This document shows positions 2,399 through 42,074 of a stretch of DNA of 47,082 bases, piece after piece (position 1 is the stretch's first letter; each line of letters begins with the position of its first letter). The stretch is from positions 1 to 47,082 of the forward strand of contig JAQUWU010000038.1 of the NCBI GenBank assembly GCA_028692715.1, written 5' to 3'. This stretch comes from Paludibacter sp. (GTDB taxonomy: Bacteria > Bacteroidota > Bacteroidia > Bacteroidales > Paludibacteraceae). A program made the translations under genes and the position numbers. A model generated the notes under the pieces. It searched no databases. It saw only the letters and a program-made list of their open reading frames with translations, and was not told the origin of the DNA.

Positions 2399-2426
2399 CC
2401 ACCTAACCCCCTAAAGGGAAAACTGA
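2399..2426. repeat. Junction palindromic repeat, copy 1
   Basis: Contains CCACCTAACCCCCTAAAGGG. It is a diverged copy of the dispersed repeat with core CCCCTAACCCCTAAAGGGG. It lies in the leader just upstream of the broken GH78 start and is inverted relative to the copy at 2472-2497. Here the copy is not translated: the GH78 frame meets a stop codon within it. Confidence 0.75.
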
Positions 2427-2471
2427 GGCTGGTCATTAATCATTTATTTAGATACTTTTGAAGATGCACCA

Positions 2472-2497
2472 AGCTCCCCCTTTAGAGGATTGTGAGC
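2472..2497. repeat. Junction palindromic repeat, copy 2
   Basis: Contains AGCTCCCCCTTTAGAGGA, just downstream of the MFS stop (2513 on the minus strand). It is the inverted partner of copy 1, with 45 nt between them. This is the most diverged pair in the window. Confidence 0.6.
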
Positions 2498-2512
2498 TGA
2501 ATAGTTACCGTT

Positions 2513-3880
2513 TTAAATATCGTCTCCGTATCTTTCTTTTGTTATTTGTTGCAAAGTTTTGCCCTGGGTTTTGGGTGTCCAAATAGTTCCTATTATTAAT
2601 GCGATTAGGAGCAATCCGATCATCATGTAAGCCGCAGTATTAAATCCTTCGCCGTTTTCGCCGTAAATATGAACAAATACCAATCCCCAGATTGCGGCTA
2701 TTCCTCTTACGGCAAAGAACATAACTCCTTGCGCTCCCGCGCGATATTTGGCAGGAAAGAGTTCCGAAGCCCAAAGCGCATAAAATGCTTGTACACTTAC
2801 TCCTGCGTGAATACCCCAAAGAATGGTGAATGTCCATAATGCGGTATAATTTTTTATTCCAACAAAAATAAGGATACACCAAGCAGCTACACCAATCAAT
2901 GTGCCTACAAAATACAGCAGGCGCTGATTTACCTTATCGACTAACATAGCAAAGCCAAAATAAGTTACCGCAATAATCACGATCCATTGTACGGCCGATA
3001 CCATATTAGCTTGTCCGTTTGAAAGTCCGCCTGCATTTTCATAAATGTGTTGTTGAAAGAAACCCATCACGGAAGCAACCATGTTCCAAGAAATATAAAT
3101 ACCTGCAAGAAAAATAATTGTGCGAACATTTACTTTGTTTGTGAAAAGTGTTCTGAATGAAGCGAAAACACTCGGTTGTTTCTCATTGCCTTGCGCTTGC
3201 TTAGCGTCTTCCCAATCTTTTGATTCATTGAGTTTTCGTTGAAGAGTCCATGCCACAAACGCTACTATAAACAATGAGCCAAAAATAATACGGCTGCTGA
3301 ATACATTGACTGATTCAAGGCTTAAATCGTTTCCTAAAAAGAATGTCGCGATTTTTTGCACATAGTTGAATAAAACACCAGCTGAAGCATCAGCTTTACC
3401 CGGTGCAAGCAACATTCCCAAGAGTAAAATGATTGTCGGACCTACTCCCCAAGCAAACTGAGAAATACCCATATTTCGTCCGCGATTACTTACTTCCGAA
3501 TTTTCGGAAATATAAGTCCACGAGGCAGGAACACCGGCTCCTACTGATATACCTGTTATCAAAAATCCGGTCAACAGCATCGGGAAATTGACCGTGAACA
3601 TTATAATTGCAATCCCCAACATATATACAAGCATATTGTAGGTGTAAATCGTTTTTCGACCGTATTTGTCGGCAAGAAAACCACCGATGATTGCACCGAT
3701 TGCCGCTCCGAAACAGTTGGCGCTGATAGCGTTAAGCCACCCGAGATTTCCTTCGGTAAGTCCGAGGTAATTTTGCCAAAGCGTCAATCCGCTTGCACCG
3801 GCTACAATCGCACCTGCATCAAGATAATTTGTAAGCGATACTGCTATCGTACTTTTTAAACTCCCTTTTTTAAGTTCCAT
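2513..3880 (-). CDS. MFS sugar transporter, inner membrane
   Basis: A 455-aa hydrophobic protein with about 12 predicted membrane segments. The loop between segments 2 and 3 carries the major facilitator signature (ADKYGRKT, near residues 68-75). A related motif (ERGR-like SNRGRNMG) follows segment 4. The length is normal for the sugar-porter branch. Its place between an esterase and a cytoplasmic-type GH78 suggests uptake across the inner membrane of a sugar or small oligosaccharide released from RG-II, perhaps rhamnose-containing. That substrate is inferred from neighbours only. The start at 3880 follows a 56-nt gap after the esterase stop, so it is probably cotranscribed. No SD-like motif is obvious, as is usual in Bacteroidota. 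Confidence 0.85.
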   Translation of the reverse strand: MELKKGSLKSTIAVSLTNYLDAGAIVAGASGLTLWQNYLGLTEGNLGWLNAISANCFGAAIGAIIGGFLADKYGRKTIYTYNMLVYMLGIAIIMFTVNFPMLLTGFLITGISVGAGVPASWTYISENSEVSNRGRNMGISQFAWGVGPTIILLLGMLLAPGKADASAGVLFNYVQKIATFFLGNDLSLESVNVFSSRIIFGSLFIVAFVAWTLQRKLNESKDWEDAKQAQGNEKQPSVFASFRTLFTNKVNVRTIIFLAGIYISWNMVASVMGFFQQHIYENAGGLSNGQANMVSAVQWIVIIAVTYFGFAMLVDKVNQRLLYFVGTLIGVAAWCILIFVGIKNYTALWTFTILWGIHAGVSVQAFYALWASELFPAKYRAGAQGVMFFAVRGIAAIWGLVFVHIYGENGEGFNTAAYMMIGLLLIALIIGTIWTPKTQGKTLQQITKERYGDDI

Positions 3881-3936
3881 GTGTTTTTAGTAATATTTTA
3901 TTTTAATACTGATTTATAAATATCTATTCTTTTCAA

Positions 3937-4818: not shown

Positions 4819-5192
4819 TGTGGTGAATTGTGTTGAATTATTTTGAAATCTTTTAATTATCAGCAATTAGTACTTGTCAAGAGAAACTGAATGCGATATT
4901 AATACTTTGAAAATCTTTATTTTATCCAAGGTGCTTCCGCCCCTAAAACCCTAACTTCCTTTTTGTCTTAACACAAAAAGTAGAAAAAAAAGAGTTCAAG
5001 ACTACGTCCACTTCATTCGAAAAAATTTTCATTTGTAAGCTAAAAACTTTAAACTCGCCCCCGACAAAATACGTCGAAGCTCAAACAGAAAAGTTTTCTA
5101 CGCCTACTTCACTCCATTTTTGGTTCACTGGACGAGGTCGGTCATTTAGGAATATTGCAAAAATCAATTAGTTGTCAAGACTGATATTCATT
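4819..5192. other. Gene-free gap with a hairpin and repeat-like sequence
   Basis: No coding frame is supported in these 374 bases. A perfect hairpin CTTTTTGT / ACAAAAAG with a 6-nt loop lies at 4959-4980. The sequence after it (about 4990-5150) differs in texture from the neighbours and resembles an intergenic repeat I believe recurs in Bacteroidota genomes; I cannot verify this here. It splits the otherwise tight minus-strand operon. Confidence 0.4.
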
Positions 5193-6278: not shown

Positions 6279-8831
6279 TTAAATCTGTTTTTTTAATTGT
6301 ACCCAAACTTCATTTGGTTTTGCACCTTCAATTCCGGTCTGGTATTTTTTCATAATACCATTCCAATCGTCAACCCGGGGATTATTTTCGGTTGTTTTTG
6401 GGTTTAACTCATCCAAACTTGTACCTTTTGGTATACTTATGACCAATATTAACTGACGTCCGTTTTTATAAACTTGCAATTGTTGAAAATCGGCATTACA
6501 AAATCCGTTGGATACTTCAGGCCATTTTTCAAATTGTGTTTTGTGCTCATCCAGATATTCCTGTTGAAGTGTTGGATCATCAATCAAATTGGCCGTAAAT
6601 ATAATATGTTCCCATTCAGCAGCCAACTTTTTATCGTCACAATTCTTAAATTTATTGAAATTGTAAAACGGTTGATTGTAGGCATTTATCATACCCGTTG
6701 GATAAACCGATTGAAGTATTGTTTTGAACCTATCGACATGATTCATTTTTGCATATAAAACCAAATGATTTTGCCATTTATAAAATTGAGGTTCGATAAC
6801 TCCATTCAAAACAGAAAGCTCTTTTAATTTAGCAATATTAAATTCTGTTCCAATTAATTCGATAGCGGCAAAGTGTGGAATCTCCTGTAATGCTTTAGTT
6901 GAATCGATGACAACTTTATCTTTCAGATTTCCGAATTGAGGAGAGATACCTGCGTTTTGTTTAATACTGTCATTGACATATTCGTTGTTATTTTCCCAAT
7001 AATTATTGGGTCCGGTCGCATTTTTCAATATTTTTTCTGCCGGAATCCAATTATTTTTTACGGTTATAAACGACGAACCTTCGTCGGTATACAAATAAAA
7101 CCAATGATGCGGATCGTGAACATAGCCCGGCATGTAAATATCGTGAATATAATTTTCAGATATTACTGTTTTTGGCTGAGAACCGAGCGTATAAATTGCC
7201 GAAACATCGTACATGTGTTTTGCATAATGGTGTATATTATTTGCATATATACGATTATTATGCATACGATTCACCGTTTGATTCCAACCCCAACCCAAAC
7301 TAATACCCATATAGGATACATCATTAATTTCGTTGTGCTCAATATTAATATTACTGACATATCCGGCACAAATTCCAACGCAACCCCAGTCTTCGTTGGT
7401 AGCGTTTGTAATAAGGTTATTGATTATTTGTTGCCCATCGCACATTTCGCGTTCATCGTGTGGAATATATGGAATGTGCGTTTCGAGAGCAGGAGGCGAA
7501 ACACTACCCACCAAAATTCCATTTCCGGCAATATCTGAAAATAAGCAATTCTGTACTTTTCCACCTTTGTCGCCATACGCATAATCCAAACCGGAATATC
7601 CAAGATGTTCAAACGAACAATTTTCAAAATTCACAGCGTTGGAACATTTTACCGAAACTGCCGAAGGAGCGCGTTCCAACCAAACCTGATTATCCAATTT
7701 GTGATTATTATCTCCTCGAACTATTTGTGGATCGAGTCGATAGGCTTCAGTTACATACATTCCGGCTTGCAAAGGAACATGCCCTTTTTCAGAAGGATGC
7801 ATCCAAGTAGTATAATTAAAAGCAATATTTTTAAAATTCACATTCTCAACCGGACGATCCAGTGTTCCTTCGATCTGTACCAATGTTTCTATGCATGGAA
7901 CGACTGCTTCTTCGATTTTCTCGCCTTTCAAGGGATAATAATACAGTTTGTTAGTACGAATATCGTGAAACCATTCTCCCTGTTGATCTAACAACTCGAT
8001 GGCGTTCGTTAAGTAAAATGGCGAATTTACCCCATCTCCAATGGAAGGTCGCGGCCAATAACGATCAAATTGCAGTTTATTTTCAGGATTGTGGAAGCGA
8101 ATGGCAGCAGAATCACCATGTATCTCAATTGATTTTATGCGCAGAATCGACACTACCCACATCTGATGCAAAACCATTTCGGGATAAGGAGCTTTTAGAA
8201 TCAATTTTACCGCTTTTGCAGGAGTCCATAGTATCTGATTTTTTTTATCGTTGCCAATAATGCGATTCATTTTTTCAAAATCAGCCACATCGCGTGCCCG
8301 TACAGCTTTTTTACCGTTCACATATAATTGACGAAAATCAAGTGGACGACCGTTAAAATCAGGTACATAGGCCACCCAAAGCTTTCCTGATTTTTTCCAG
8401 TTATTGATTTTTACTCCTCCACTCAAAATAACTTTTTCGCCCTCAGCACCACAAATTGTAGTAGGTGATTGAGGCGTTCCACTATCTTCAGGACGCACAA
8501 AAAGTGGTTCATACATTTCATATTCACCACCTTTTAAAATTATCTGAATTCCGTTTTCAATTCCGTCAACTTTCAGTCTACGCATCTCGCGTGCCTGACG
8601 AAGCGCTGCCAAAACAGTTGCTTTTGGAGCAGTTATAGAACCGTTATTTGTATCCTTTCCGTTGGGAGAGACGTAAATGTCGGCTGCAAAAGTATAAGAA
8701 CAAAAAAACAATAAAAAGAACAACAAAGAACCCCTAACCCCTAAAGGGGAACAGAAGTTAGTTTTGTTTACCCCTAACCCCTGAAGGGGGAAAAGTGCGG
8801 TTCTGTTTATTAATTTAAGATTAAAATTCAT
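6279..8831 (-). CDS. GH141-like beta-helix glycosidase fused to a mutarotase domain
   Basis: The N-terminal part (about 45-640) is a right-handed parallel beta-helix opening with DIYVSPNGKDTNNGS and including GDNNHKLDNQVWLERAP. It resembles GH141, whose RG-II founder is the BT1002 alpha-L-fucosidase of chain A. The C-terminal 165 residues (about 684-850) look like an L-rhamnose/L-fucose mutarotase domain: EYLDEH, then EKWPEV, then NPRVDDWNGIM, and KPNEVWVQL near the end. The start is placed at the Met codon 8831-8829 (850 aa); an earlier ATG at 8864 adds 11 residues. The signal peptide is unusual: two copies of the dispersed repeat are translated between the charged start and the hydrophobic core (SLLFFLLFFCSYTFAA). 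The upstream neighbour is GH127, the same pairing as BT1002/BT1003. The fusion would release a sugar and speed its anomeric interconversion in the periplasm (inference). Confidence 0.75.
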   Translation of the reverse strand: MNFNLKLINRTALFPLQGLGVNKTNFCSPLGVRGSLLFFLLFFCSYTFAADIYVSPNGKDTNNGSITAPKATVLAALRQAREMRRLKVDGIENGIQIILKGGEYEMYEPLFVRPEDSGTPQSPTTICGAEGEKVILSGGVKINNWKKSGKLWVAYVPDFNGRPLDFRQLYVNGKKAVRARDVADFEKMNRIIGNDKKNQILWTPAKAVKLILKAPYPEMVLHQMWVVSILRIKSIEIHGDSAAIRFHNPENKLQFDRYWPRPSIGDGVNSPFYLTNAIELLDQQGEWFHDIRTNKLYYYPLKGEKIEEAVVPCIETLVQIEGTLDRPVENVNFKNIAFNYTTWMHPSEKGHVPLQAGMYVTEAYRLDPQIVRGDNNHKLDNQVWLERAPSAVSVKCSNAVNFENCSFEHLGYSGLDYAYGDKGGKVQNCLFSDIAGNGILVGSVSPPALETHIPYIPHDEREMCDGQQIINNLITNATNEDWGCVGICAGYVSNINIEHNEINDVSYMGISLGWGWNQTVNRMHNNRIYANNIHHYAKHMYDVSAIYTLGSQPKTVISENYIHDIYMPGYVHDPHHWFYLYTDEGSSFITVKNNWIPAEKILKNATGPNNYWENNNEYVNDSIKQNAGISPQFGNLKDKVVIDSTKALQEIPHFAAIELIGTEFNIAKLKELSVLNGVIEPQFYKWQNHLVLYAKMNHVDRFKTILQSVYPTGMINAYNQPFYNFNKFKNCDDKKLAAEWEHIIFTANLIDDPTLQQEYLDEHKTQFEKWPEVSNGFCNADFQQLQVYKNGRQLILVISIPKGTSLDELNPKTTENNPRVDDWNGIMKKYQTGIEGAKPNEVWVQLKKQI
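8730..8752. repeat. Junction palindromic repeat, copy 3 (translated)
   Basis: Plus strand reads CCCCTAACCCCTAAAGGGG. On the minus strand it is translated as SPLGVRGS, directly before the hydrophobic core of the GH141 signal peptide. It is a tandem neighbour of copy 4 and is inverted relative to copy 5. Confidence 0.9.
8770..8794. repeat. Junction palindromic repeat, copy 4 (translated)
   Basis: Plus strand reads CCCCTAACCCCTGAAGGGGG. It has the same orientation as copy 3, 17 nt away, but is translated in a different frame, as FPLQGLGV. Two copies in two frames within one signal peptide argue that the DNA, not the peptide, is conserved. Confidence 0.9.
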
Positions 8832-8865: not shown

Positions 8866-8890
8866 TTCCCCTTTAAGGGCTAGGGGGTCT
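8866..8890. repeat. Junction palindromic repeat, copy 5
   Basis: Plus strand reads TTCCCCTTTAAGGGCTAGGG, the inverse of copies 3 and 4. It fills the space between the GH127 stop (TAG at 8891-8889) and the first ATG of GH141 (8864-8862), ending within the stop codon. Facing arms 71 nt apart could form a long hairpin in the mRNA. Confidence 0.85.
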
Positions 8891-16140: not shown

Positions 16141-16250
16141 GTCAACTGTATTAACAGTAACTCTTTCGTTGATTTTTATTGAGTATTTTTTCAAAATTAC
16201 AAAATTCAGAAATTACTGCTTATATTTGTAAAACTTTCATTTCCATTAAT

Positions 16251-19200
16251 ATGAAGATTATATCTATTAAAATTTTTCTTCTCGTAGCACTTCCTTTTAT
16301 AACAAATGACGTTGTTTTCGCTAAGGAGAAAATTCATTATACCGGCTCAACACTTTCCAACCCGACCTACCACGACGGACAACTTTCTCCTATTGTAGGA
16401 GTACACAATATACAGGTAATGCGCGTTAACAGGGAACATCCGGATGCATCCAACTGCAATGGCTGGACCTACAATCATCAACCTATGATGGCCTATTGGA
16501 ATGGAAAATTCTACCTGCAATTTCTGAGTGATGAAGTAAGCGAACATATTCCACCATCACAGACCTTTTTGCAAACATCTACAGATGGTTATAGTTGGAC
16601 AAATCCGCAAGTTTTATTCCCTATTTATAAAGTTCCCGATGGTTTTACAAAACCAGACATTTCAGATGTAGCTAACAACCTAACTGCCATTATGCATCAA
16701 CGGGTTGGTTTCTACGTTAGTAAATCCAATCGCCTTATCACTATGGCTTTTTATGGTGTGGCATTGAACAGTAAAGATGGTCCGAATGATGGAAACGGTA
16801 TTGGTCGTGTGGTTCGTGAAATAAAAAAAGATGGATCTTACGGACCAATTTATTTTATCCATTACAATCACGGTTTTAATGCTAAAAATACCGATTATCC
16901 AAATTTTACAAAAAGCAAAGATAAAGATTTTGTAAAAAGTTGTCAGGAAATACTCGACAATCCATTGTATATGATGCAATGGGTGGAAGAGTCAGACAGA
17001 GGTGATAAAATCATTCCTTTCAATAGAGAGTTACAGGCATTTAATTACTACCATTTGCCCGACGGAAATATTGCCTGTTTATGGAAACACGCCTTGACTT
17101 CAATAAGTACAGATGGTGGAAAAACATGGGACGAAAATGTGCAACGTGCACAGGGTTTTGTGAACAGTAATGCCAAAATTTGGGGACAGCACTTAACCGA
17201 TGGAAGTTATGCAACTGTTTATAATCCTTCCGAATTCCGTTGGCCGTTAGCTATTTCCACTTCAGCTGATGGTCTGAATTATACAACACTGAATCTAGTA
17301 CATGGCGAGATAAGTTCTATGCGTTACGGTGGAAACTACAAATCGTACGGACCACAATACGTTCGCGGCATTCAGGAAGGAAACGGAATTCCGCCTGATA
17401 AAAATATGTGGGTTGCCTATAGCGTAAACAAAGAGGATATATGGGTTTCGAAAATTCCGGTTCCGATCAAAATTAATCCGACTTCACAAGCTGACGATAA
17501 TTTTGAGAAATACAACAATATCTCGGAATTGGCTGACTGGAACATTTACTCGCCACTTTGGGCACCTGTATCGTTGGAAAAAGTAAATGGTAAAAACTGG
17601 CTGACGTTAAAAGATAAAGATCCATTTAGTTTTGCCAAAGTTGTTCGAAAAATACCGGCCACTAAAGAGCTAAAAGTATCGTTTAATTTGATAGCCGATC
17701 AAACAAAAAACGGCATTTTTCGTATTGAATTTATGGATAATAAAGGAATTGTCTGTTCGCGGTTGGAATTGACGGATGAAGGAATATTTCGTGCCAAAGT
17801 AGGCTACAGATTTTCTAATATAATGAAATATGAATCAGGTAAAAATTATCAGGTTGAAGCTATACTTTCGACCACCAACCGCAATATAACAATTTTTGTT
17901 GATGGTAAACAAGTTGGACTCAGGATGTTTTTTGCTCCGGTTAGTTCTATCGAACGTATTGCTTTTAGCACGGGCGAAACCAACGAATTCCCAACTGCGG
18001 AAACGCCAACCGATCAAAACTACGACCTGCCAAACGCAGGAGAACAGGATTCACTTGCTGTTTTCAAAATTGCCAATTTTAAGACTGAATCGTTGGATGC
18101 TAATGCATCGGCTTCTATACTAAAATTTGTAGATTTTAAACATTACGTGGATTATTTCAACACGATGGAAGATGAAAATATTGTTCAAGCCATACCAAAT
18201 TCTCAAGCATCTGAATGGATGGAGCAAAATATCCCATTGTTTGAATGTCCCCAAAAGAATTTTGAAGAAATGTTCTACTTTCGCTGGTGGACATTGCGCA
18301 AACACATTGAAAAAACACCGGTTGGTTATGCTTTTACAGAGTTTTTAGTAAACCGGACGTATGCCGACAAATATAATTTAATATCCTGCGCCTTGGGTCA
18401 TCACATGTACGAAAGTCGCTGGTTGCGCGATACAACTTATATGAATCAGGATATTAAAACCTGGTATCGTGGCAATGAAGGAGTACCCATGAAAAAAATG
18501 ATGAATTTTAGTTCATGGAATATAGATGCACAGTTGAACCGCTATTTTGTGACTAGTGATAAAACGTTTTTATTGGAAATGCTCAACGATATGGAAGCAG
18601 AATATGCTCGTTGGGAAAACTCACACCGACTAAGAAACGGTCTTTACTGGCAAGGCGATGTGCAAGACGGCACGGAAGAAACCATCAGCGGTGGACGACA
18701 CAAACAATATGCACGTCCAACCATCAATAGTTATATGTACGGTAATGCCAAAGCTTTATCTATAATTGAAAAACTTGCCGGGAACGATGAAAAATCAAAA
18801 ATCTATAGTTTAAAAGCCGACACGCTAAAAAATCTTGTTGAAACTAAACTTTGGAGCGGAAAACAAGGATTTTTTGAAACGATGAGAAAAGATACCTTGG
18901 CCAATGTACGGGAGTTTATTGGCTATTTACCTTGGTATTTCAATATGCCTTCGTGTTCAAAATATGATAACGCATGGACTGAATTAGCCAACGAAAAAGG
19001 ATTCTCTGCTCCATACGGAATGACTACTGCCGAGCAACGTCACCCTGAATTTCGCACTCGAGGCGTTGGAAAATGTGAATGGGATGGAGCTATTTGGCCT
19101 TTTGCCACATCGCAAGTACTGACAGCGATGGCTAATTTCATGAACAACTATCCACAAAAAGTAACTAACGACAGCATATATTTTAGTCAATTAGAAAAAC

Positions 19201-19595
19201 TGGTACAATCGCAGTCGCATCGTGGATTGCCATACGTTGGAGAATATTTGGACGAAACAACCGGCTATTGGCTTAAAGGCGATCAGGAACGCAGTCGATA
19301 TTATAATCATTCTACATTTAACGATTTAATTATTACCGGGTTAATCGGACTTCGTCCACGTATGGACAATACCATTGAAGTAAATCCACTTTTACCTGAA
19401 GGTAAATGGGATTGGTTTTGTTTGGATAATATTCTATATCACGGTCATAATCTCACAATTGTTTGGGATAAGAATGGTAACAAATATCATGTAGGGAAAG
19501 GACTTCAAGTGTTGGTGGATGGAACAGTAGTTGGGAAGTCAGATAAACTGACGAAAATACTCTGCCCCCTAAATTCCCCAAAAGTGGACTTATAA
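16251..19595 (+). CDS. GH143-GH142 two-domain enzyme (DHA hydrolase / beta-L-arabinofuranosidase)
   Basis: 1114 aa started at ATG 16251 (MKIISIKIFLLVALPF, signal peptide ending near VFA); the frame extends back only to a TTG. Three parts are visible. A beta-propeller (about 30-415) contains Asp-box-like repeats (STDGGKTWD, STSADGLNY). A beta-sandwich of LamG/CBM type (about 425-605) follows. The rest is an (alpha/alpha)6 barrel (about 620-1090: FRWWTLRKHI, WLRDTTYMNQD, CEWDGAIWPFATSQ, YYNHSTFNDLIITGLIGLRP). This size and order match BT1020, whose N-terminal GH143 domain cleaves DHA and whose C-terminal GH142 domain cleaves beta-L-arabinofuranose, together removing RG-II chain D. The last residues (CPLNSPKVDL) are encoded by a copy of the dispersed repeat. 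GH78 starts 35 nt after the stop. Confidence 0.8.
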   Translation: MKIISIKIFLLVALPFITNDVVFAKEKIHYTGSTLSNPTYHDGQLSPIVGVHNIQVMRVNREHPDASNCNGWTYNHQPMMAYWNGKFYLQFLSDEVSEHIPPSQTFLQTSTDGYSWTNPQVLFPIYKVPDGFTKPDISDVANNLTAIMHQRVGFYVSKSNRLITMAFYGVALNSKDGPNDGNGIGRVVREIKKDGSYGPIYFIHYNHGFNAKNTDYPNFTKSKDKDFVKSCQEILDNPLYMMQWVEESDRGDKIIPFNRELQAFNYYHLPDGNIACLWKHALTSISTDGGKTWDENVQRAQGFVNSNAKIWGQHLTDGSYATVYNPSEFRWPLAISTSADGLNYTTLNLVHGEISSMRYGGNYKSYGPQYVRGIQEGNGIPPDKNMWVAYSVNKEDIWVSKIPVPIKINPTSQADDNFEKYNNISELADWNIYSPLWAPVSLEKVNGKNWLTLKDKDPFSFAKVVRKIPATKELKVSFNLIADQTKNGIFRIEFMDNKGIVCSRLELTDEGIFRAKVGYRFSNIMKYESGKNYQVEAILSTTNRNITIFVDGKQVGLRMFFAPVSSIERIAFSTGETNEFPTAETPTDQNYDLPNAGEQDSLAVFKIANFKTESLDANASASILKFVDFKHYVDYFNTMEDENIVQAIPNSQASEWMEQNIPLFECPQKNFEEMFYFRWWTLRKHIEKTPVGYAFTEFLVNRTYADKYNLISCALGHHMYESRWLRDTTYMNQDIKTWYRGNEGVPMKKMMNFSSWNIDAQLNRYFVTSDKTFLLEMLNDMEAEYARWENSHRLRNGLYWQGDVQDGTEETISGGRHKQYARPTINSYMYGNAKALSIIEKLAGNDEKSKIYSLKADTLKNLVETKLWSGKQGFFETMRKDTLANVREFIGYLPWYFNMPSCSKYDNAWTELANEKGFSAPYGMTTAEQRHPEFRTRGVGKCEWDGAIWPFATSQVLTAMANFMNNYPQKVTNDSIYFSQLEKLVQSQSHRGLPYVGEYLDETTGYWLKGDQERSRYYNHSTFNDLIITGLIGLRPRMDNTIEVNPLLPEGKWDWFCLDNILYHGHNLTIVWDKNGNKYHVGKGLQVLVDGTVVGKSDKLTKILCPLNSPKVDL
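19563..19591. repeat. Junction palindromic repeat, copy 6 (translated)
   Basis: Reads TGCCCCCTAAATTCCCC then AAAAGTGGACTT. It encodes the last nine or ten residues of the GH143-GH142 protein and stops just before its TAA. It is the inverted partner of copy 7, 78 nt away. Confidence 0.8.
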
Positions 19596-19630: not shown

Positions 19631-22444
19631 ATGAAATTACTTATAAATAGTCCAAACATCTGGTTCTTTAAGTCCCCCTTCGTGGGGTTTAGGGGGCTTC
19701 TATTTTTACTTTTTATATCAATTTCTTCCAATGCCATTGAAATCACCAAACTTACCAGCGAGTTTCAGCAAAATCCATTAGCCGTAAACACCTTACAACC
19801 ACGTTTGGGTTGGCAATTTACATCTACTGAAAATGGAACCATGCAATCGGCTTATGAATTGGAAATTAAAGCAGCAAGTTTTATTTGGAACAGCGGGAAA
19901 GTTACTTCTTACAAAAGTCAGCTTATAAAATACACAGGAAGTCCTCTCAAATCAGGAGAAAAATACCAATGGCGGGTTCGTGTTTGGGACGAAGAGGGAA
20001 ACCTATCAAATTGGAGTGCTTGGACAACATTTCGAACCTCACCCCCAACCCCTCTCCTTGAGGAGAGGGGAGCGTGGATTGGTGCTATCCGCACCGATTC
20101 AGCCCACATTCCTGCAGGAAAAAGGTTCCTGAGTTGGGAAATGGGAACGCCTGAATACAAAGCGGTCTGGAAAAATATCGATTCCATTTCACGAAAAAGT
20201 ATTTTTTTGCGAAAAGTATTTAAAGCTCCGAACGAAATTCAGGAAGCCATCACATACATTTGCGGGCTCGGGCATTATGAATTCAGCATCAATGGTAAGA
20301 AAATAGGCGATGGCGAATTTGCACCTTTCTGGAGCGATTACGATAAAACGGTTTATTACAATACTTTCGACATAACTTCTTATCTAAAAAAAGGGGAGAA
20401 TGTGTTCGGAGTTTTGCTCGGGAATGGTTTTTATAATACACAAGGCGGTCGATACAGTAAACTGAAGGTTTCGTTTGGTGCTCCTACTTTGTTTTTCAAA
20501 ACCGTTATCCGATACGCTGACAATTCCACACAAGAAATTCTTTCGGACTATAGTTGGAAATTTGATTTTAGCCCAATTACTTTTAATGATATTTACGGCG
20601 GTGAAGATTACGATGCCCGACTGGAACAACAAGGTTGGAATTTACCCAAATTTAATGACTTAAATTGGAAATCAGTTGCTATTCAGGAAGCTCCAAAAGG
20701 AAAACTCACCCCACAGCAAGGCTATCCAATCAAAATCATGGAGCGAATCGATTTCACAAAAGAAAAACCCTTATATTTATTTAAAGATCAATTAGGAAAA
20801 TTGTCTTCAATTCCCCCTTTAGGGGGTGAGGGGGCATCTGCTATGGTTTTTGATATGTATCAGAATCTTTCCGGTTATCCTGAAATTACTGTCAGCGGTA
20901 AAAAAGGCGATAAAATAACGTTGATTGTTGGAGAATCAGTTACTCCCGAAGGAGCTGTTGATCAGCGTCAGACTGGGCGTCCTCATATTTACACTTATAT
21001 ATTAAAAGGCGAGGGTAATGAAACCTGGCATCCACGTTTTTCCTATTATGGATTTCATTATATTCAAGTGGAAGGTGCTACTTTAAAAGGAGATAAAAAT
21101 CCACGTAAATTGCCCGTTTTGAAAGATATTAAATCGTGTTTTGTGTACAATTCAAATCCACAAATATCAACTTTTGAATGTTCGAATGACATTTTCAACA
21201 AAACCCATATATTGATTCAAAAAGCGGTTGAAAGCAATATGCAGGGAGTTTTTACAGATTGTCCGCAACGCGAAAAACTGGGTTGGCTGGAGGAAGTTCA
21301 TTTGAACGGACCTGTGCTGATGTACAATTATGACCTTGCGGCTTTTATGACAAAAGTAATGCAAGATATGGCCGATGCACAGCAACTTGATGGAATGGTG
21401 CCAACCATTGCACCCATGTACAATATTTTTGGGAATAAAGAAGGATTCGATGATTTTGGGAATTCTCCTGAATGGGGAAGCACACTCAATATTTTACCCT
21501 GGATGTATTTCGATTTTTATGGGGATTCTACATTAATAATCAAATACTATCAAAACATGCGACGATATGTTGATTACCTGACAAGTCGTGCCGAGAATCA
21601 CATTCTTTCTTTTGGGTTGGGCGATTGGTACGATTATGGTGATTTTAAAGCTGGATTTTCGCGCAATACTCCTGTGCCGTTTGTTGCTTCAGCATATTAT
21701 TTTTACGATTTGACTTTACTGGTAAAAGCAGCTCGAATGGTTGGAAATAAATATGATGAAGCCTATTATCAAAAACTTGCTGACAAAGTTCGAATTGCCA
21801 TCAATTCAAAATTTTTCAATCCGGAAACGAAGCAATATGCCACCGGTAGTCAGACTGCTAATTCTATGGCTGTTTATTTGAATATTGTTGAGGAACAATA
21901 CCGTAAAGCAGTGTTGGAAAACCTGAAAAAGGACATTCAAAATCATGGTAACAGGCTCACAACCGGCGATATCGGCAACCGTTATTTATTCCAGACTTTG
22001 GCAACCAACAGATTAAATAATTTGATGTACCAAATGTTTAATCATGAAGATGCTCCCGGCTACGGTTTTCAGTTGAAACATGGAGCTACCTCCCTTACCG
22101 AGCAATGGGATCCCCGCAGAGGTGCTTCGTGGAATCATTTTATGCTGGGGCAAATTGACGAATGGTTTTTTGCTTCTTTAGCAGGGATACAGACTGACGC
22201 AAAGCAACCCGGCATGCAATATTTTATTATTAAACCCGAAGTTGTCGGTGATTTAAAATTTGTAAAAGCCTCAACAGAAACACTGTATGGAAAAATTTCA
22301 GTAGACTGGAAAAAGGAGACAGATAAATTTACACTCAGTATACAAGTTCCTGTAAATTGTACTGCAGATGTTTATTTACCCGGAGATACAATTGCAACTG
22401 TTGTAAAAAGTGGAATTTTTAATTTTTATAAGGGGTTAAATTAA
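19631..22444 (+). CDS. GH78 alpha-L-rhamnosidase, with three translated repeat copies
   Basis: 937 aa and full length for multi-domain GH78. Order: signal peptide (core LLFLLFISISSNA), a fibronectin-III-like domain (about 37-135), beta domains including YICGLGHYEFSINGKKIGDG, the Bac_rhamnosid region (VFDMYQNLSGYPEITVSG), the (alpha/alpha)6 barrel with DCPQREKLGWLEEV (about 543-556), and a C-terminal beta domain. It corresponds in order to the RG-II rhamnosidase BT1019, beside GH28 and GH143-GH142. Three stretches are encoded by dispersed repeats: SPFVGFRG in the signal peptide, SPPTPLLEERG (about 137-147) and IPPLGGEGA (about 395-403). All are in frame and at linker positions between domains, so the enzyme may still fold. 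Confidence 0.88.
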   Translation: MKLLINSPNIWFFKSPFVGFRGLLFLLFISISSNAIEITKLTSEFQQNPLAVNTLQPRLGWQFTSTENGTMQSAYELEIKAASFIWNSGKVTSYKSQLIKYTGSPLKSGEKYQWRVRVWDEEGNLSNWSAWTTFRTSPPTPLLEERGAWIGAIRTDSAHIPAGKRFLSWEMGTPEYKAVWKNIDSISRKSIFLRKVFKAPNEIQEAITYICGLGHYEFSINGKKIGDGEFAPFWSDYDKTVYYNTFDITSYLKKGENVFGVLLGNGFYNTQGGRYSKLKVSFGAPTLFFKTVIRYADNSTQEILSDYSWKFDFSPITFNDIYGGEDYDARLEQQGWNLPKFNDLNWKSVAIQEAPKGKLTPQQGYPIKIMERIDFTKEKPLYLFKDQLGKLSSIPPLGGEGASAMVFDMYQNLSGYPEITVSGKKGDKITLIVGESVTPEGAVDQRQTGRPHIYTYILKGEGNETWHPRFSYYGFHYIQVEGATLKGDKNPRKLPVLKDIKSCFVYNSNPQISTFECSNDIFNKTHILIQKAVESNMQGVFTDCPQREKLGWLEEVHLNGPVLMYNYDLAAFMTKVMQDMADAQQLDGMVPTIAPMYNIFGNKEGFDDFGNSPEWGSTLNILPWMYFDFYGDSTLIIKYYQNMRRYVDYLTSRAENHILSFGLGDWYDYGDFKAGFSRNTPVPFVASAYYFYDLTLLVKAARMVGNKYDEAYYQKLADKVRIAINSKFFNPETKQYATGSQTANSMAVYLNIVEEQYRKAVLENLKKDIQNHGNRLTTGDIGNRYLFQTLATNRLNNLMYQMFNHEDAPGYGFQLKHGATSLTEQWDPRRGASWNHFMLGQIDEWFFASLAGIQTDAKQPGMQYFIIKPEVVGDLKFVKASTETLYGKISVDWKKETDKFTLSIQVPVNCTADVYLPGDTIATVVKSGIFNFYKGLN
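19670..19698. repeat. Junction palindromic repeat, copy 7 (translated)
   Basis: Reads AGTCCCCCTTCGTGGGG then TTTAGGGGGCTT. It is translated as SPFVGFRG immediately before the hydrophobic core of the GH78 signal peptide. It is the inverted partner of copy 6. Confidence 0.85.
20037..20076. repeat. Internal palindromic repeat, copy 8 (variant, translated)
   Basis: Contains CCCCCAA followed by the perfect hairpin CCCCTCTCCT / AGGAGAGGGG with a 2-nt loop (20049-20070). It is translated as TSPPTPLLEERGAW inside mature GH78, between the fibronectin-like domain and the WIGA segment. The stem is longer than in the other copies, so it may be a separate subfamily. Confidence 0.85.
20811..20837. repeat. 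Internal palindromic repeat, copy 9 (translated)
   Basis: Reads TTCCCCCTTTAGGGGGTGAG then GGGGCA. It is translated as IPPLGGEGA in GH78, just before the conserved VFDMYQNLSG segment, where relatives have a short loop. Confidence 0.85.
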
Positions 22445-26271: not shown

Positions 26272-28734
26272 ATGATGAATTTATTGAAACATAAAATCAA
26301 TATTATTTTCGCCCTACTAATTGGCTGCTTGCAAGGTATAACAAGTCAGACAAATGAGTACAAACTTTGGTACGACCAACCTGCTCAGGTTTGGACAGAA
26401 GCGTTACCATTGGGAAACGGACGTTTAGGTGCTATGGTTTATGGCAATCCGGCCATAGAACAAATTCAGTTGAACGAAGAAACTATTTGGGCAGGAAGTC
26501 CGAATAGTAATGCGAATCCGGAGGCTTTATTGTACATCCCTAAAGTACGTGAGTTGGTTTTTGCAGGTAAATATCTAGAAGCACAGGATTTGGCTACCGA
26601 AAAAGTGATGTCGAATACGAATTCAGGTATGCCCTATCAAACATTTGGCGATTTACGCATTGCTTTCCCCGGACATTCCAGTTATACCAATTATTACAGA
26701 GATTTAAATCTTGATTCGGCTTGTGCGACGGTTCAATATAAAGTAGATGGAGTTACATTTAACAGAGAAATCTTCACGTCATTTACCGAACAGGTCATCA
26801 TTGTACGACTAACAGCATCGAAGCAAAAGCAAATCACCTTCAATGCACAACTTACATCACCTCAACAAGATGTTTTTATTAACTCGGAAGGAAACGAAGT
26901 AACATTAAGTGGTGTTACACCCACGCACGAACGCCAAAAAGGGAAAATAAAATTCAATGGCCGACTGACTGCTAAAACCAAAGGCGGTAAATTGATCTGT
27001 AAAGATGGCATACTATCTGTTGAGAAAGCAGACGAAGTGATTCTTTATGTTTCTATTGCTACCAATTTCAATAAATACGATGATATTCAGGGCGATGAAG
27101 TTGTTCGTGCAAAAAATTATCTTGACAATGCTATTTTAGTAGATTATCATCATGCAAAAAAATCGCACATCGATTTCTTTAGTAAATACATGCAACGTTC
27201 CAGCCTCGATTTAGGTCCGAATATTTCAAAAGAAACAACCGATAAACGCATTGAACATTTTGCAGAAACGAATGATGCTCATTTAGTGGCAACTTATTAC
27301 AAATTTGGCCGTTACTTGCTCATTTGCTCTTCGCAACCGGGAGGCCAGGCAGCTAATCTACAGGGAATTTGGAACGATAAAATGTTTCCTTCGTGGGATA
27401 GTAAATATACGACCAACATCAATTTGGAGATGAATTATTGGCCGGCGGAAGTCACCAACTTGTCCGAATTGTCAGAGCCACTTTTACGTTTAACAAAAGA
27501 AGTGAGCGAGACAGGTAAAGAAACTGCAAAGATTATGTACGGCGTAGATGGCTGGGTGTTGCATCACAATACTGATATTTGGCGAATAACAGGTCCGGTC
27601 GACAGAGCTGCTTCTGGCATGTGGACATCCGGCGGAGCATGGCTCTGTAGCATGTTGTGGGAGCATTATTTATACACCGGCGATAAAGAGTTTCTGAAAT
27701 CGGTATATCCGACAATGAAAGAATCGGCCATTTTTTTTGATAAAATAATGGTGAAAGAACCTGACCATAACTGGTTGGTGGTCTGTCCGAGCAATTCCCC
27801 GGAAAACACACATGCAGGAAGTAATGGAAAAGCAACTACTGCCGGAGGAGTTACAATGGATAATGAATTAATTTCGAACTTATGGAATATCATTATTGAA
27901 AGTTCAAAAATATTACAAACCGACACAGACTTTGCCAATCATTTAAAAAACCGTTTGACTGAAATGGCACCTTTTCAAATCGGACATTGGGGGCAATTGC
28001 AGGAATGGATGTTCGATTGGGACAATCCCGAAGATATTCACCGTCATGTTTCGCATTTGTGGGGACTTTTCCCGGGGAATCAAATTTCACCTTATCGTAC
28101 ACCAGAATTATTCGATGCAGCCCGCACTTCACTTATTCATCGTGGCGATCCTTCCACAGGCTGGAGCATGGGTTGGAAAGTATGCTTGTGGGCACGTTTG
28201 CTCGATGGAGACCATGCATATAAATTAATCACGGATCAACTATCTTTGGTCAGAAACGAGCCTAAACATGGAGGTACCTATCCAAATTTATTTGATGCTC
28301 ATCCCCCATTTCAAATCGATGGGAACTTTGGATGTACAGCCGGAATTGCCGAAATGTTGATGCAAAGTTATGATGGATTTATATATTTATTACCTTCGTT
28401 ACCAGGCATTTGGGAAAACGGAGAAGTAAAAGGACTTGTAGCTCGAGGAGGTTTTGAGATGGACATAAAATGGAGCAATGGGAAAGTAGAGAAAGTGACA
28501 ATCCACTCACGAAATGGCGGAAATTGTCGTCTTCGCTCGCTTAACACACTAAAAGGAAAAGGTTTACGAAAAGCAAAAGGTGCAAATAAAAATTCTTTTT
28601 TTGTAGTTCCTGAAAATACAAAACCATTAATTAACGAGAATGCAAAACTAAATCCGGTAATTTTAAAAGACACGTATCTTTACGATTTGAAAACTGAAAA
28701 GGGTGGAACTTACATAATAACCCCCAACCCCTAA
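26272..28734 (+). CDS. GH95 alpha-L-fucosidase/alpha-L-galactosidase
   Basis: 820 aa, normal GH95 length, with signal peptide (MMNLLKHKINIIFALLIGCL..SQ). An N-terminal beta-sandwich opens with LWYDQPAQVWTEALPLGNGR (NGRLGAM), and an (alpha/alpha)6 barrel follows with NLQGIWNDK, NLEMNYWPAEVTNLSE and VCPSNSPENTH, then IDGNFGCTAGIAEML. These are hallmark GH95 motifs. In RG-II degradation the GH95 enzyme BT1010 acts as an alpha-L-galactosidase on chain A; presence of GH141 for fucose supports that role here, although fucosidase activity remains possible. The stop codon TAA (28732-28734) lies inside a copy of the dispersed repeat, so the C-terminal TPNP is repeat-encoded. Confidence 0.9.
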   Translation: MMNLLKHKINIIFALLIGCLQGITSQTNEYKLWYDQPAQVWTEALPLGNGRLGAMVYGNPAIEQIQLNEETIWAGSPNSNANPEALLYIPKVRELVFAGKYLEAQDLATEKVMSNTNSGMPYQTFGDLRIAFPGHSSYTNYYRDLNLDSACATVQYKVDGVTFNREIFTSFTEQVIIVRLTASKQKQITFNAQLTSPQQDVFINSEGNEVTLSGVTPTHERQKGKIKFNGRLTAKTKGGKLICKDGILSVEKADEVILYVSIATNFNKYDDIQGDEVVRAKNYLDNAILVDYHHAKKSHIDFFSKYMQRSSLDLGPNISKETTDKRIEHFAETNDAHLVATYYKFGRYLLICSSQPGGQAANLQGIWNDKMFPSWDSKYTTNINLEMNYWPAEVTNLSELSEPLLRLTKEVSETGKETAKIMYGVDGWVLHHNTDIWRITGPVDRAASGMWTSGGAWLCSMLWEHYLYTGDKEFLKSVYPTMKESAIFFDKIMVKEPDHNWLVVCPSNSPENTHAGSNGKATTAGGVTMDNELISNLWNIIIESSKILQTDTDFANHLKNRLTEMAPFQIGHWGQLQEWMFDWDNPEDIHRHVSHLWGLFPGNQISPYRTPELFDAARTSLIHRGDPSTGWSMGWKVCLWARLLDGDHAYKLITDQLSLVRNEPKHGGTYPNLFDAHPPFQIDGNFGCTAGIAEMLMQSYDGFIYLLPSLPGIWENGEVKGLVARGGFEMDIKWSNGKVEKVTIHSRNGGNCRLRSLNTLKGKGLRKAKGANKNSFFVVPENTKPLINENAKLNPVILKDTYLYDLKTEKGGTYIITPNP

Positions 28735-28742
28735 AGGGGAAT
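28720..28742. repeat. Junction palindromic repeat, copy 10 (holds the GH95 stop)
   Basis: Reads CCCCCAACCCCTAAAGGGG. It supplies the last codons and the TAA stop of GH95. It is the inverted partner of copy 11, 76 nt away, and the two arms are almost fully complementary. Confidence 0.9.
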
Positions 28743-28777: not shown

Positions 28778-30244
28778 ATGATTTTAAAAAAAAGCTACAA
28801 AAACAAAACTAATTTCTATTCCCCTTTAGGGGTTAGGGGTAGTCTTCTTCTCTTGCTTTTTACAACAACAACAACAACTCTTTTTGCTGCAAATCCTTTT
28901 CAAAACGGGAAACTAAAAGTTAGTGAAAATCAGCATTACCTTCAGTACGAAAACGGTCAACCTTTCTTTTGGTTAGGCGATACCGGTTGGTTGTTACCCG
29001 AACGTCTCGATCGTGATGAAGCAGAATATTACATTGATGAATGTAGTAAACGAGACTACAATGTTGTTCAGGTTCAAACAATTAACGATGTACCATCGTA
29101 CAATATTTATGGTCAATCGTCAAATCCGGATGGATTTGATTTTAAAAACATAAATAAAAAAGGGGTTTATGGCTACTGGGATCATATGGATTATATTATA
29201 AAAATGGCCGAAAAAAAAGGAATTTATATTGGAATGACCTGCATATGGGGTGGACTGGTAAGTTCCGATAAAATGAATGTGAAAGAAGCACAGTCTTATG
29301 GAAAATTCTTAGGTGAGCGCTACAAAGACTCTCCAAATATCATTTGGATGATTGGTGGCGATATTCGTGGCGATATAAAAACGGAGGTATGGGAAACCTT
29401 GGCAAAAGCGATCAAAGCGGTGGATAAAAATCATTTGATGACTTACCATCCTCGTGGCAGAACCTGTTCGACAACCTGGTTCAACGATTCTGAATGGTTG
29501 GATTTCAATATGTTTCAAAGTGGACATCGCCGTTACGGACAACGAAATGGAGACGGAGATTATACTATAGCTGAAAACACCGAAGAGGATAGCTGGCGTT
29601 ATGTGGAGAAAAGTTTTTCCATGTTACCTGTAAAACCTGTTCTTGACGGCGAACCTTCGTACGAAGACATTCCGCAGGGATTACATAATTTGAAAGAAGT
29701 TCGCTGGAACGACAATGATGTACGTCGCTATGCCTATTGGTCGGTATTTGCCGGTTCGTTTGGTCATACATACGGTCATAATTCAATTATGCAATTTTAC
29801 AAACCCAGCATTTTTGGAAATTATGGTGCAGATCGTCCATGGTACGATTGTTTGAAAGATCCAGGTTATAATCAAATGAAATATCTTAAAGATTTGATGC
29901 TGGCATTTCCTTTCTTTGAGCGAGTTCCAGACCAAAACATTATTGCCGGACAAAACGGTGAACGTTACGATCGAGCCATTGCAACTCGTGGAAACGATTA
30001 TTTATTGGTGTATAATTATACAGCTCGTCCAATGTCCATCGATTTATCAAAAATAAGTGGTGAAAAGAAAAAATGCTGGTGGTTCAATCCTAAAAATGGA
30101 GATTTACAATTCATTGGAGAGTTTGACGGTTCTAAAGTAACTGATTTCACCATCGATGCCGGATATAATTCTGGAAACGACAGAGTGTTAATAGCAGTGG
30201 ATAGTAGCAAAGATTATGTCAAAAAAATAATGCAAAAAAAATAA
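28778..30244 (+). CDS. GH140 apiosidase
   Basis: 488 aa. A TIM-barrel of the DUF4038 type (about 40-395) opens with LKVSENQHYLQYENGQPFFW and LGDTGWLLPERL, followed by a C-terminal beta domain (GNDYLLVYNYTARPMSIDLS). Candidate catalytic acids are Asp195 in MIGGDIRGD and Glu292 in LDGEPSYED. Their 97-residue separation equals that of Asp187/Glu284 in BT1012, the founder of GH140, which cleaves the apiose link that joins side chains A and B to the RG-II backbone. The signal peptide is MILKKSYKNKTNFY, then repeat-encoded SPLGVRGS, then the core LLLLLF and a Thr run before LFAA. The Thr run comes from an ACA repeat. Confidence 0.88.
   Translation: MILKKSYKNKTNFYSPLGVRGSLLLLLFTTTTTTLFAANPFQNGKLKVSENQHYLQYENGQPFFWLGDTGWLLPERLDRDEAEYYIDECSKRDYNVVQVQTINDVPSYNIYGQSSNPDGFDFKNINKKGVYGYWDHMDYIIKMAEKKGIYIGMTCIWGGLVSSDKMNVKEAQSYGKFLGERYKDSPNIIWMIGGDIRGDIKTEVWETLAKAIKAVDKNHLMTYHPRGRTCSTTWFNDSEWLDFNMFQSGHRRYGQRNGDGDYTIAENTEEDSWRYVEKSFSMLPVKPVLDGEPSYEDIPQGLHNLKEVRWNDNDVRRYAYWSVFAGSFGHTYGHNSIMQFYKPSIFGNYGADRPWYDCLKDPGYNQMKYLKDLMLAFPFFERVPDQNIIAGQNGERYDRAIATRGNDYLLVYNYTARPMSIDLSKISGEKKKCWWFNPKNGDLQFIGEFDGSKVTDFTIDAGYNSGNDRVLIAVDSSKDYVKKIMQKK
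28819..28841. repeat. Junction palindromic repeat, copy 11 (translated)
   Basis: Reads CCCCTTTAGGGGTTAGGGG. It is translated as SPLGVRGS just before the hydrophobic core of the GH140 signal peptide, the same peptide as in GH141 on the other strand. It pairs with copy 10. Confidence 0.9.
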
Positions 30245-41254: not shown

Positions 41255-41259
41255 ATTCA

Positions 41260-41300
41260 AAAACTCCCATAATCAACAAAATGCCGATTTTGGGAGTTTT
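41260..41300. terminator. Bidirectional terminator between convergent genes
   Basis: 10-bp stem AAAACTCCCA / TGGGAGTTTT with a 21-nt loop, between the plus-strand GH78 fusion (stop 41254) and the minus-strand DUF3826 gene (stop 41327). A-rich and T-rich flanks make it usable on both strands. Confidence 0.75.
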
Positions 41301-41326
41301 CTTGTATTAATCTATAAAAAAACTAT

Positions 41327-42049
41327 CTATTTCGATTTATTTGCTTTAATTCTCTCATACCAATTTTGACGTTCTTTCGTCAAATCATAACCCCTTGCCG
41401 AAAGATAATTATTGATTCGACCTTTGTATTTGCCAAATGCTTCGTGCTTTTTGTTTGAACTTTCTGCATCAATAGCAAATTCACGAGCTTCTTTCAACCA
41501 AGCTAAAATTTGTGCTTTTTCTTCTTCTTTTAAAGAAGGAATCATATCCAAAGTTGAATCATATGTAACTTTCACTACTCCATAGGTTATTCCATCTTTA
41601 ACAGACTCTATTTGAGATGTTGTAAGATAAAGTGATAAATCAGCTGGAAATGCAAAATGAGAACGATATAAAGCAGCCTCTTTTCTGTTTTGTGCCATTT
41701 CTAATGCACTATTTTTAGCCTCACCTGTAAGTGTTCTTTTCATTTTGGACACAGCACTATCTCGTTCAGTGTAAATATCATTTAAACTAAAGTATTTATT
41801 TGCAATAATATTCCTTACCTGAGTAATTGTTTCATCGCTTTTCAATTCAAGTTTATCTACAATTTTTTGTGAACGTGCCACTATCGTCTCGACATATTTA
41901 GGGTCACGGTTTTTTGAATCCAGAGCAACTGCGTAAATAGACTGGGCTATTATTAACAGAAAAAAAAGAACCACTAGCCCCTGAAGGGGAACTAAATTAG
42001 TATTGTTTTTTGTTTTTTTATTTTTTGTCATATTTCTATTTCTTTTCAT
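41327..42049 (-). CDS. DUF3826 secreted protein
   Basis: 240 aa. The N-terminus has basic residues (MKRNRNMTKNKKTKNN), then repeat-encoded VPLQGLVV, then a hydrophobic core (LFFLLIIAQSIYA). The mature part is all-helical, with blocks LTTSQIESVKDG, MIPSLKEEEKAQI, LKEAREFAID and a tail WYERIKANK. It belongs to DUF3826, often found beside pectate lyases in Bacteroidota pectin loci. The same domain forms the C-terminus of the CE19-like esterase at 24256-26262, which ties it to esterified pectin. Biochemical role unknown. The Met at 42031 is an alternative start. It lies directly after PL1 and is probably cotranscribed. Confidence 0.75.
   Translation of the reverse strand: MKRNRNMTKNKKTKNNTNLVPLQGLVVLFFLLIIAQSIYAVALDSKNRDPKYVETIVARSQKIVDKLELKSDETITQVRNIIANKYFSLNDIYTERDSAVSKMKRTLTGEAKNSALEMAQNRKEAALYRSHFAFPADLSLYLTTSQIESVKDGITYGVVKVTYDSTLDMIPSLKEEEKAQILAWLKEAREFAIDAESSNKKHEAFGKYKGRINNYLSARGYDLTKERQNWYERIKANKSK
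41971..41992. repeat. Junction palindromic repeat, copy 12 (translated)
   Basis: Plus strand reads CCACTAGCCCCTGAAGGGGA. On the minus strand it is translated as VPLQGLVV at the start of the hydrophobic core of the DUF3826 signal peptide. It is the inverted partner of copy 13. Confidence 0.85.
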
Positions 42050-42074
42050 GTTCCCCTTTAGGTGCTAGGGGTGG
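42050..42074. repeat. Junction palindromic repeat, copy 13
   Basis: Plus strand reads TTCCCCTTTAGGTGCTAGGG. It fills the gap between the PL1 stop (42077) and the DUF3826 ATG (42049-42047), which it touches. The arms are 57 nt apart and enclose the start codon. Confidence 0.85.

Follow-up and report, generated by a model that had tools for sequence, protein, structure and literature searches.

A REPIN-like family of palindromic doublets in Paludibacter that probably spreads as a unit, sits behind stop codons and may sometimes supply the start of the next protein

We found that the palindromic repeats at gene junctions of a Paludibacter contig belong to a family of doublets, two inverted arms around an AT-rich loop, spread over the genome and the genus. 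The family is probably mobile and REPIN-like, multiplying as a unit in Paludibacter, settling after stop codons and sometimes giving the next gene its start codon and N-terminus. Among the readings first offered from the sequence of the window (the whole stretch of DNA analysed, 47,082 nt), REPIN-like elements tolerated at junctions had been listed last, and it is the best supported of them.

The 19-mer core has 8 matches within the window at three or fewer mismatches (shuffles, 0/100), and the 12-mer CCCCTAAAGGGG has 10 at no more than one mismatch, against 0.09 expected. Exact cores number 243 in the whole Paludibacter genome, versus one control match. Of 35 same-genus relatives 32 have the repeat, as do 10 of 24 genomes from other families, the latter mostly with 1–7 copies each. 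The arm takes approximately the form (A/G)CCCC-TAA-CCCCTAAAGGGG, and a single arm is able to fold a small CCCC/GGGG hairpin. Paired and single cores both occur, with junctions mostly holding pairs; doublets have a median size of 110 nt (range 78–145 nt). Core pairs 35–115 nt apart were collected from three genomes as non-overlapping cores with a 3–4 nt centre, so that degenerate arms, such as those at the convergent junctions L003 and L005, fall outside this set of 78. The genome-wide search proposed in the sequence-only reading gave orientations far from random, with 70 of the 78 pairs facing each other, and positions close to the upstream stop. A scan of the window with Rfam 15 gave no match above gathering score, and a literature search of an open library returned no paper on this repeat or on CCCCTAAAGGGG-type strings.

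All five junctions at which facing arms had been described hold. Between the MFS and GH78 genes, transcribed on the minus strand, the stop-side arm (2477..2496, −; PWM score 14.7) lies past the MFS stop at 2513 and the start-side arm (2400..2419, +; PWM score 19.3, sequence read) precedes a GH78 ATG (2383, −) that is outside the loop, past this second arm; the RNA of 2396–2494 folds with z −3.66. Three arms lie at GH127/GH141: one from the core search, PWM and sequence read (8868..8887, −) between the GH127 stop (8889) and the GH141 ATG (8864, −), and two within the GH141 N-terminus, read as FPLQGLGV (8770..8789, +; core search, translation) and, second in tandem, as SPLGVRG (8730..8749, +; exact core match, translation). 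A diverged stop-side arm (19564..19592, +), read by eye and recovered by the inverted-repeat scan, lies in the final codons of the BT_1020-like (GH143/142) gene, whose protein (16179–19595) matches BT_1020-like domains. It forms an inverted repeat (fold z −5.01) with the arm at 19669..19697 (−), found by inverted-repeat scan, RNA fold and translation within the signal peptide (KSPFVGFRGLLFLLF) of a GH78 gene starting at 19631 (+). The arm at 28720..28739 (+; core search, translation) terminates the GH95 gene with its own TAA (stop 28734), and its partner (28821..28840, −; core search, orthologue comparison; fold z −5.40) is within the signal peptide (YSPLGVRGSLLLLLF) of the GH140 apiosidase (28778..30244, +; Pfam PF13204, orthologue comparison). 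At the fifth junction, one arm (41970..41989, +; core search, translation; fold z −4.86) lies within the DUF3826 signal peptide (LVPLQGLVVLFFLL) and the other (42053..42072, −; core search, PWM, sequence read) between the upstream stop (42077) and the DUF3826 ATG (42049, −). The downstream ATG is in the loop at four of the five junctions (8864−, 19631+, 28778+ and 42049−), as had been read. Other details changed: there are 12 copies instead of at least 13, the twelfth being a lone arm (20814..20833, −; PWM 33.7) that encodes IPPLGGEGA inside the GH78 reading frame and is shared, among 12 aligned relatives, with G002 only; and facing cores are 57, 78, about 76, 81 and 63 nt apart, where 45–79 nt had been given for the arms. 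Pfam agrees with the gene names for MFS, both GH78, GH141, GH127, GH95, the apiosidase (GH140) and DUF3826, while the supposed PL1 protein gave no Pfam hit at E 1e-5.

Full-length copies at unrelated loci have alignable loops and shared ends. Two copies in genome G016 (L352 and L353), lying in opposite orientation, are 90.6% identical across 117 nt, loop included; the alignment is bounded exactly by ACCCC and GGGGT, and homology stops at both bounds. Three G002 copies are 90–96% alike, with homology extending about 35–40 nt past one end. Loop-loop comparisons, leaving out L349 (a local duplication) and loops shorter than 50 nt, scored at least 50 in 30 of 1830 cases versus none in the shuffled control. 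These results contradict the earlier description of the loops as unconserved, which had set the elements apart from a MITE. Most loop pairs score at chance level, implying great age or heavy divergence for most copies; the likeness of arms around such diverged loops could be a sign of arm function. The target-site duplication of fixed length expected of a DDE-type MITE was not seen: in the set of pairs with 12-nt cores (70), used for both the target-site and the covariation tests, duplications of 1, 3, 4, 5, 6 or 7 nt were present at 0 of 62 copies and of 2 nt at 3 of 62.

Inverted REP arms at limited spacing, spreading as a doublet, are what define a REPIN, a REP doublet that forms a hairpin and is associated with a RAYT (Bertels and Rainey 2011; PMC3116915). 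The Paludibacter doublets share these features, as inverted pairs of short palindromic repeats in units of about 70–110 nt, hundreds per genome and mostly extragenic; target-site duplication is unseen in them. We infer that they may still be moving, perhaps by a ssDNA-type transposition, with selection acting as the filter on where copies survive. Unlike those of REPINs, the arms flank no RAYT among the loci inspected and have, as far as the arm consensus (A)CCCCTAACCCCTAAAGGGGAA was inspected, no GTAG/CGTC tag at the REP foot. The missing tag weighs little, because the structures of the Bacteroidetes RAYT subclass 2.6 are themselves called 'atypical secondary structures' (PMC6006769). A protein search found genes in the genus that resemble RAYTs and carry NH[IV]H, WQ and YIH motifs; the genus is in the same phylum as that subclass. 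We took 32 RAYT-like loci (the best genus-search matches plus L034 and L035); a CCCC..GGGG core within 350 nt was present at one, and came from a different single-unit repeat. No cognate RAYT flanked by these arms, and no transposase carrying them, was thus seen among the 32 loci; the RAYT-like genes of the genus bear their own hairpins, of CCCCTCGTTTGCAACGAGGGG and GGGATTTGCAATCCC type. Genomes that match RAYT strongly (n = 18) have a median of 88 core copies and those that do not (n = 17) a median of 15 (p 0.008, ignoring genome size and relatedness), and a RAYT may thus be linked to the doublets in trans. Six genomes with at least 50 copies have no strong match.

The doublets show a mild preference for tandem junctions: 69 of 73 are at same-strand junctions, compared with 82.7% of all junctions under rough gene calls (p 0.003), whose yield of 0.66–0.72 genes per kb implies that short genes were missed. 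Divergent junctions hold 4 of the 78 core pairs and convergent junctions none of 73 strict pairs (p 0.001), with degenerate pairs at the two convergent junctions mentioned above. The core lies a median of 12 nt from the upstream stop. Where the start is beyond the element, the gap to the stop has a median of 6 nt and that to the start 19.5 nt, and the stop is the closer in 33 of 38 (38 of 48 were kept, leaving out pairs whose start is in the loop or whose distances are odd). An unbiased scan for long-loop inverted repeats (score at least 13) found them at 8 of 188 tandem junctions in G000 against 1.6 expected, at 8 of 165 in G016 against 0.55, and at 0 of 13 and 5 of 27 convergent ones, respectively; such repeats therefore do not crowd the genome, and convergent gaps hold their own kind. 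Of the end types, B left/A right relative to gene orientation was counted 10 times and the reverse twice, most pairs being unclassified, a bias too slight to rely on.

These positions suggest how copies might survive. The two arms and loop would spread together as one element, and survivors would be mostly in same-strand gaps, tight against the upstream stop, where neither gene is broken and the next initiation region is untouched. If the gap is short, the element would straddle the next start: the upstream gene could end on the CCC-TAA of the left arm, the loop could provide an ATG, and a right arm open in frame would then add a repeat-derived segment to the downstream protein, in many cases separating n- from h-region in its signal peptide.

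In 16 of the 64 tandem pairs from three genomes, a minority overall, the start is inside the loop and the first 20 codons past the arm contain no Met. In these pairs the right arm reads as the N-terminus of the next protein (SPLGVRG, VPLQGLGV). Judging from the reading frames, about a quarter of same-strand copies thus appear to provide the next protein with its start and first residues, with the loop ATG as the presumed start codon. Orthologues are filled in some relatives and empty in others: in leuC from 30 species, an in-frame arm lies between Met and LFDKIW in 12, a short MKT/MSKT-type start is found in 16 and an extension without an intact arm in 2, and the GH140 element is present in the window, L108, L110 and L177 and absent from L107 and L168. 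The downstream frame runs open through the right arm in 24 of 64 pairs, approximately the third expected at random, so selection for frame across all copies is unsupported. Nor is a TTCAG variant in the PLQ frame independent evidence of translation, since the open frame there requires TTCAG. Palindromic repeats read in frame within proteins are also represented by the Rickettsia palindromic elements, which belong to another phylum and have another sequence; the Paludibacter arms differ in being mostly at gene starts, with the doublet around the start codon. If the reading is correct, palindromic doublets are more than extragenic, serving as a portable stop, leader and start, and can therefore cross a gene boundary, joining a housekeeping enzyme or signal peptide unbroken. 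This would be a concrete path from repeat DNA to protein, and would affect gene-start annotation genus-wide.

The same junctions may be empty in relatives or filled by unrelated palindromes, which under the mobile-doublet reading would make them natural replicates on the role of operon hairpins. At galK-galM a significant inverted repeat was found in 17 of 24 resolvable species, in three or more kinds unrelated in sequence (7 CCCC, 7 GTTAATTGG/CCAATTAAC, 2 TAATTCATAATGC and 1 short hairpin), and at rpsN-rpsH in 19 of 30 species (29 scored), the kinds assigned by eye being 9 CCCC, 6 ATTTACCATT and 4 others. Control gaps not picked for the element were seldom filled (rsfS-ftsH 0/30, nuoK-nuoL 3/29). 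It could be argued from this that some stop-to-leader gaps in operons require an inverted repeat, whatever its sequence, perhaps to stop readthrough, to isolate or couple translation or to protect the upstream message, each lineage filling the gap with its own palindromic family. We regard this as unlikely. Both filled gaps were picked for carrying the element in G000 (and G002), a choice that favours permissive gaps; lengths and loops vary widely among families; some species are empty at the studied gaps (L381 and L387; L227 and L232 at galK-galM); and repeated visits to a tolerant gap account for the same facts. The neighbouring ribosomal gaps are too short for an element: of 112 junctions 6 were long enough to score and none was significant. 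A combined form, in which Paludibacter 'hairpin slots' keep an inverted repeat while its sequence is swapped among unrelated families, with mobile doublets as replaceable parts that in short gaps also give the next protein its start and N-terminus, seems to us doubtful, if conceivable.

Stems around the start codon had been proposed as a translational-coupling or stability device. Bracketed junction RNAs are indeed more stably folded than their shuffles (5 of 6 folds with z −2.6 to −5.4; the sixth, z −1.2, lacks the upstream arm in the folded piece), a consequence of the arms being an inverted repeat. Outer arm parts agree with their partners beyond permuted ones (0.713 versus 0.614, 0/1000), whereas agreement in the central four bases is no better than with permuted partners (0.882 versus 0.871, 122/1000). 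Coupling, with a putative stem opened by the ribosome that terminates on the upstream gene, would suit the energies of the stems (−28.9 to −44.2 kcal/mol, four junctions having the start in the loop), the reach of that ribosome to the left arm and the same-strand bias; it is very improbable given that 48 of 64 starts are outside the loop, that arm centres do not covary, that divergent and convergent junctions and the interior of a gene carry copies too, and that the leuC orthologues of 16 of 30 species manage without the element. REP sequences act as mRNA 3′ barriers and stabilizers in enterobacteria, and the constant closeness of arms to the upstream stop would allow the stop-side arm such a role with the second arm incidental, yet we give this hardly any credence, as pairs predominate at junctions despite the existence of single cores and strict pairs are missing from convergent junctions, where a barrier would be equally useful. 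The loops, 38–105 nt from core to core in 64 tandem pairs, do not fit the short-loop hairpin of an intrinsic terminator.

Comparison with other repeats further places the mobile doublets. Whereas just 14 16-mers overlap genes in SBW25 (PMC3116915), a quarter of the Paludibacter tandem copies enter the coding region. The BrickBuilt MITE of Porphyromonas gingivalis is likewise dispersed and itself noncoding, with an AT-rich interior and terminal inverted repeats; according to PMC4596501 it is always 49–591 nt from coding sequences and has target duplications at some copies, whereas the Paludibacter copies abut stops or starts with no duplication seen. Intergenic TAACTGA heptamers are also short repeats near start codons, with two sets reported in P. 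propionicigenes WB4 (PMC4679880), and differ from the inverted doublets in sequence and in forming direct arrays.

The repeat is a real REPIN-like family (REPIN, inverted REP doublet) whose behavior at the borders between genes is unusual. Both in the window (36.8% G+C), which lies on contig 54 of the 4.85-Mb draft genome G000, and across that genome, it is found far above chance expectation; CCCCTRAAGGGG has 124 forward and 119 reverse copies in G000, against one match for the reversed control. The description in the sequence-only reading of five window junctions with the repeat was borne out, subject to corrections of detail. Among 35 same-genus relatives, 32 carry the repeat, with up to 335 copies each, and G003, G006 and G033 have none; in other families of the order it occurs in 10 of 24 genomes, two with 25 and 67 copies and the remaining eight with 1–7. 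A pair pattern with free centre, CCCCNNNNGGGG-N55-85-CCCCNNNNGGGG, yielded 20–81 pairs per genome in all six genomes scanned, while controls gave none in five and one per strand in the sixth. We found no publication on the Paludibacter doublet in the open-access literature searched.

The doublet appears to be the unit. Two copies in the relative G016 (L352 and L353), 63 kb apart and in opposite orientation, align over 117 nt at 90.6%, from ACCCC through to GGGGT. Three copies in another relative, G002 (L336, L344 and L362), are 90–96% alike, yet their similarity extends ~35–40 nt beyond one end, making them weaker evidence on the element ends. Elements measure 78–145 nt from arm end to arm end (median 109.5), and no target-site duplication was seen at their ends. 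We compared 61 loops stripped of their arms (1830 comparisons): 30 scored at least 50 and 148 at least 40, vs. 0 and 24 in a control with one loop shuffled. Since the majority of loop comparisons are at chance level, the doublet family is probably mostly old.

Placement was examined with 78 distinct consecutive core pairs spaced 35–115 nt apart, from loci of G000, G002 and G016, some fetched precisely for carrying the repeat. The cores face each other in 70 of the 78. By junction type, 69 pairs are co-directional, 4 divergent, 1 within a called gene, 4 untypable and none convergent. The co-directional base rate in our own gene calls is already high (238/273 junctions in G000, 202/259 in G016), so that 69/73 is only a mild excess (p 0.003); the absence of convergent junctions among typed pairs is significant (p 0.001), although convergent junctions do hold two degenerate pairs after all (L003, L005). 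For the 64 oriented tandem pairs, the start lies beyond the right arm in 40, and inside the loop, with no Met within 20 codons past the arm, in 16; the other 8 have an arm open in frame and a loop without ATG. By distance (−7), the stop falls inside the stop-side arm itself in 5 of the 64. Start-downstream pairs sit a median of 6 nt from the stop and 19.5 nt from the ATG, and 33 of 38 are closer to the stop.

Relative to SBW25 REPINs, for which a passage of PMC3116915 gives only 14 16-mers overlapping genes, coding use of the arms is frequent. In window genes GH140, GH141, GH78 and DUF3826 the arm falls where the n- and h-regions of the signal peptide meet, and from this layout and the lack of another Met we infer that the loop ATG is the putative true start. 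The GH95-GH140 gap is filled as in the window at L108, L110 and L177 among 16 loci printed out of 80 fetched; L114 has an apparent remnant, and the arm is absent in the other 12. At leuA-leuC, 12 of 30 species have an in-frame arm between Met and LFDKIW (e.g., MNSKTQETPFRGNGGQTLFDKIW, MSNNAQTPPSGGRGAATLFDKIW), one of them (L086) with a second Met inside the arm; 16 begin MKTLFDKIW or one residue longer, and two (L091, L104) are extended without an intact arm. A solitary arm at 20814, inside GH78, codes IPPLGGEGA; G002 has TPPSGGRGA at the equivalent site, and the other 11 aligned relatives have an unrelated, slightly shorter stretch. The GH78 gene adjoining the MFS gene (window 233–2383, minus strand) is split into ORFs 1097–2383 and 233–1084. 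The Pfam match to the first ORF covers no more than the initial half of the catalytic domain, so the gene may be frameshifted or misassembled.

Agreement between paired arms in the outer nine bases is 0.713 vs. 0.614 permuted (0/1000); the central four show no excess (0.882 vs. 0.871, 122/1000), and the inner flank is weakly above permuted (46/1000). Shared descent of both arms explains this pattern as well as compensation does. Six window RNAs folded with z of −1.19 to −5.40. The putative coupling function of the doublet is unproven.

Certain gaps attract or retain inverted repeats of many kinds. At galK-galM, 24 of 30 loci were resolvable; an inverted repeat reached p ≤0.01 in 17 of these, 7 being of the CCCC doublet family and the rest of sequence-unrelated kinds. 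One galK-galM element (L231) is a hybrid, keeping the outer CCCCTAA...TTAGGGG ends with the inner CCCC/GGGG palindromes swapped for other hairpins (CCGTCAGCTGACGG, CCCGAAGTATCGGG). At rpsN-rpsH, 29 of 30 loci were scored, giving 19 significant repeats, only 9 of the CCCC family; four neighboring junctions of the same ribosomal operon have none in 112, just 6 of these being long enough to score. The rpsH leader has a short hairpin, AATATTGTCCCGnnnnCGGGAT, in all 30 species printed (L365–L394), whatever fills the gap upstream, with one or two substitutions in some. At leuA-leuC 11 of 26 are significant, all of the CCCC family except L089 and L092; a CTGTTGTCTGTCGTCTGTTGTCCGTCGTC-type repeat lies directly upstream of leuC at L089, L092, L095, L100, L101 and L106, in species without a CCCC element. 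Control junctions, picked as G000 gaps without repeat, have inverted repeats in 0/30 (rsfS-ftsH) and 3/29 (nuoK-nuoL). The test junctions were picked for holding an element in G000, so the cautious reading is repeated use of permissive gaps; the bold one is selection for a hairpin in certain gaps.

For a mobilizing enzyme, G000 has seven Y1-transposase matches. The RAYT-like (REP-associated tyrosine transposase) proteins of the genus have motifs NHVH/NHIH, WQ and YIHxNP, and resemble subclass 2.6 as described in PMC6006769. Repeat copies are more numerous where a genome has a strong RAYT match, in a comparison that ignores relatedness and genome size. Just one of 32 RAYT-like loci inspected has a CCCC..GGGG core close by, which belongs to a single-unit repeat distinct from the doublet; the others have other hairpins. 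A highly conserved single-unit repeat, GTAACTACTCAGCCCCCCAACCCCCTAAAGGGGGAGTTCTGGAGCGACATTC..., contains the same core without being a doublet, and is found in G000 at L004, L015, L021, L038, L041, L046, L048, L053, L061, L064 and L069; on contig C43 a relative precedes a RAYT-like gene by ~200 nt. Hairpins such as CCCCTCGTTTGCAACGAGGGG and GTTGGGATTTGCAATCCCAAC flank many of the genus's RAYT-like genes (L235–L257), on one side or on both.
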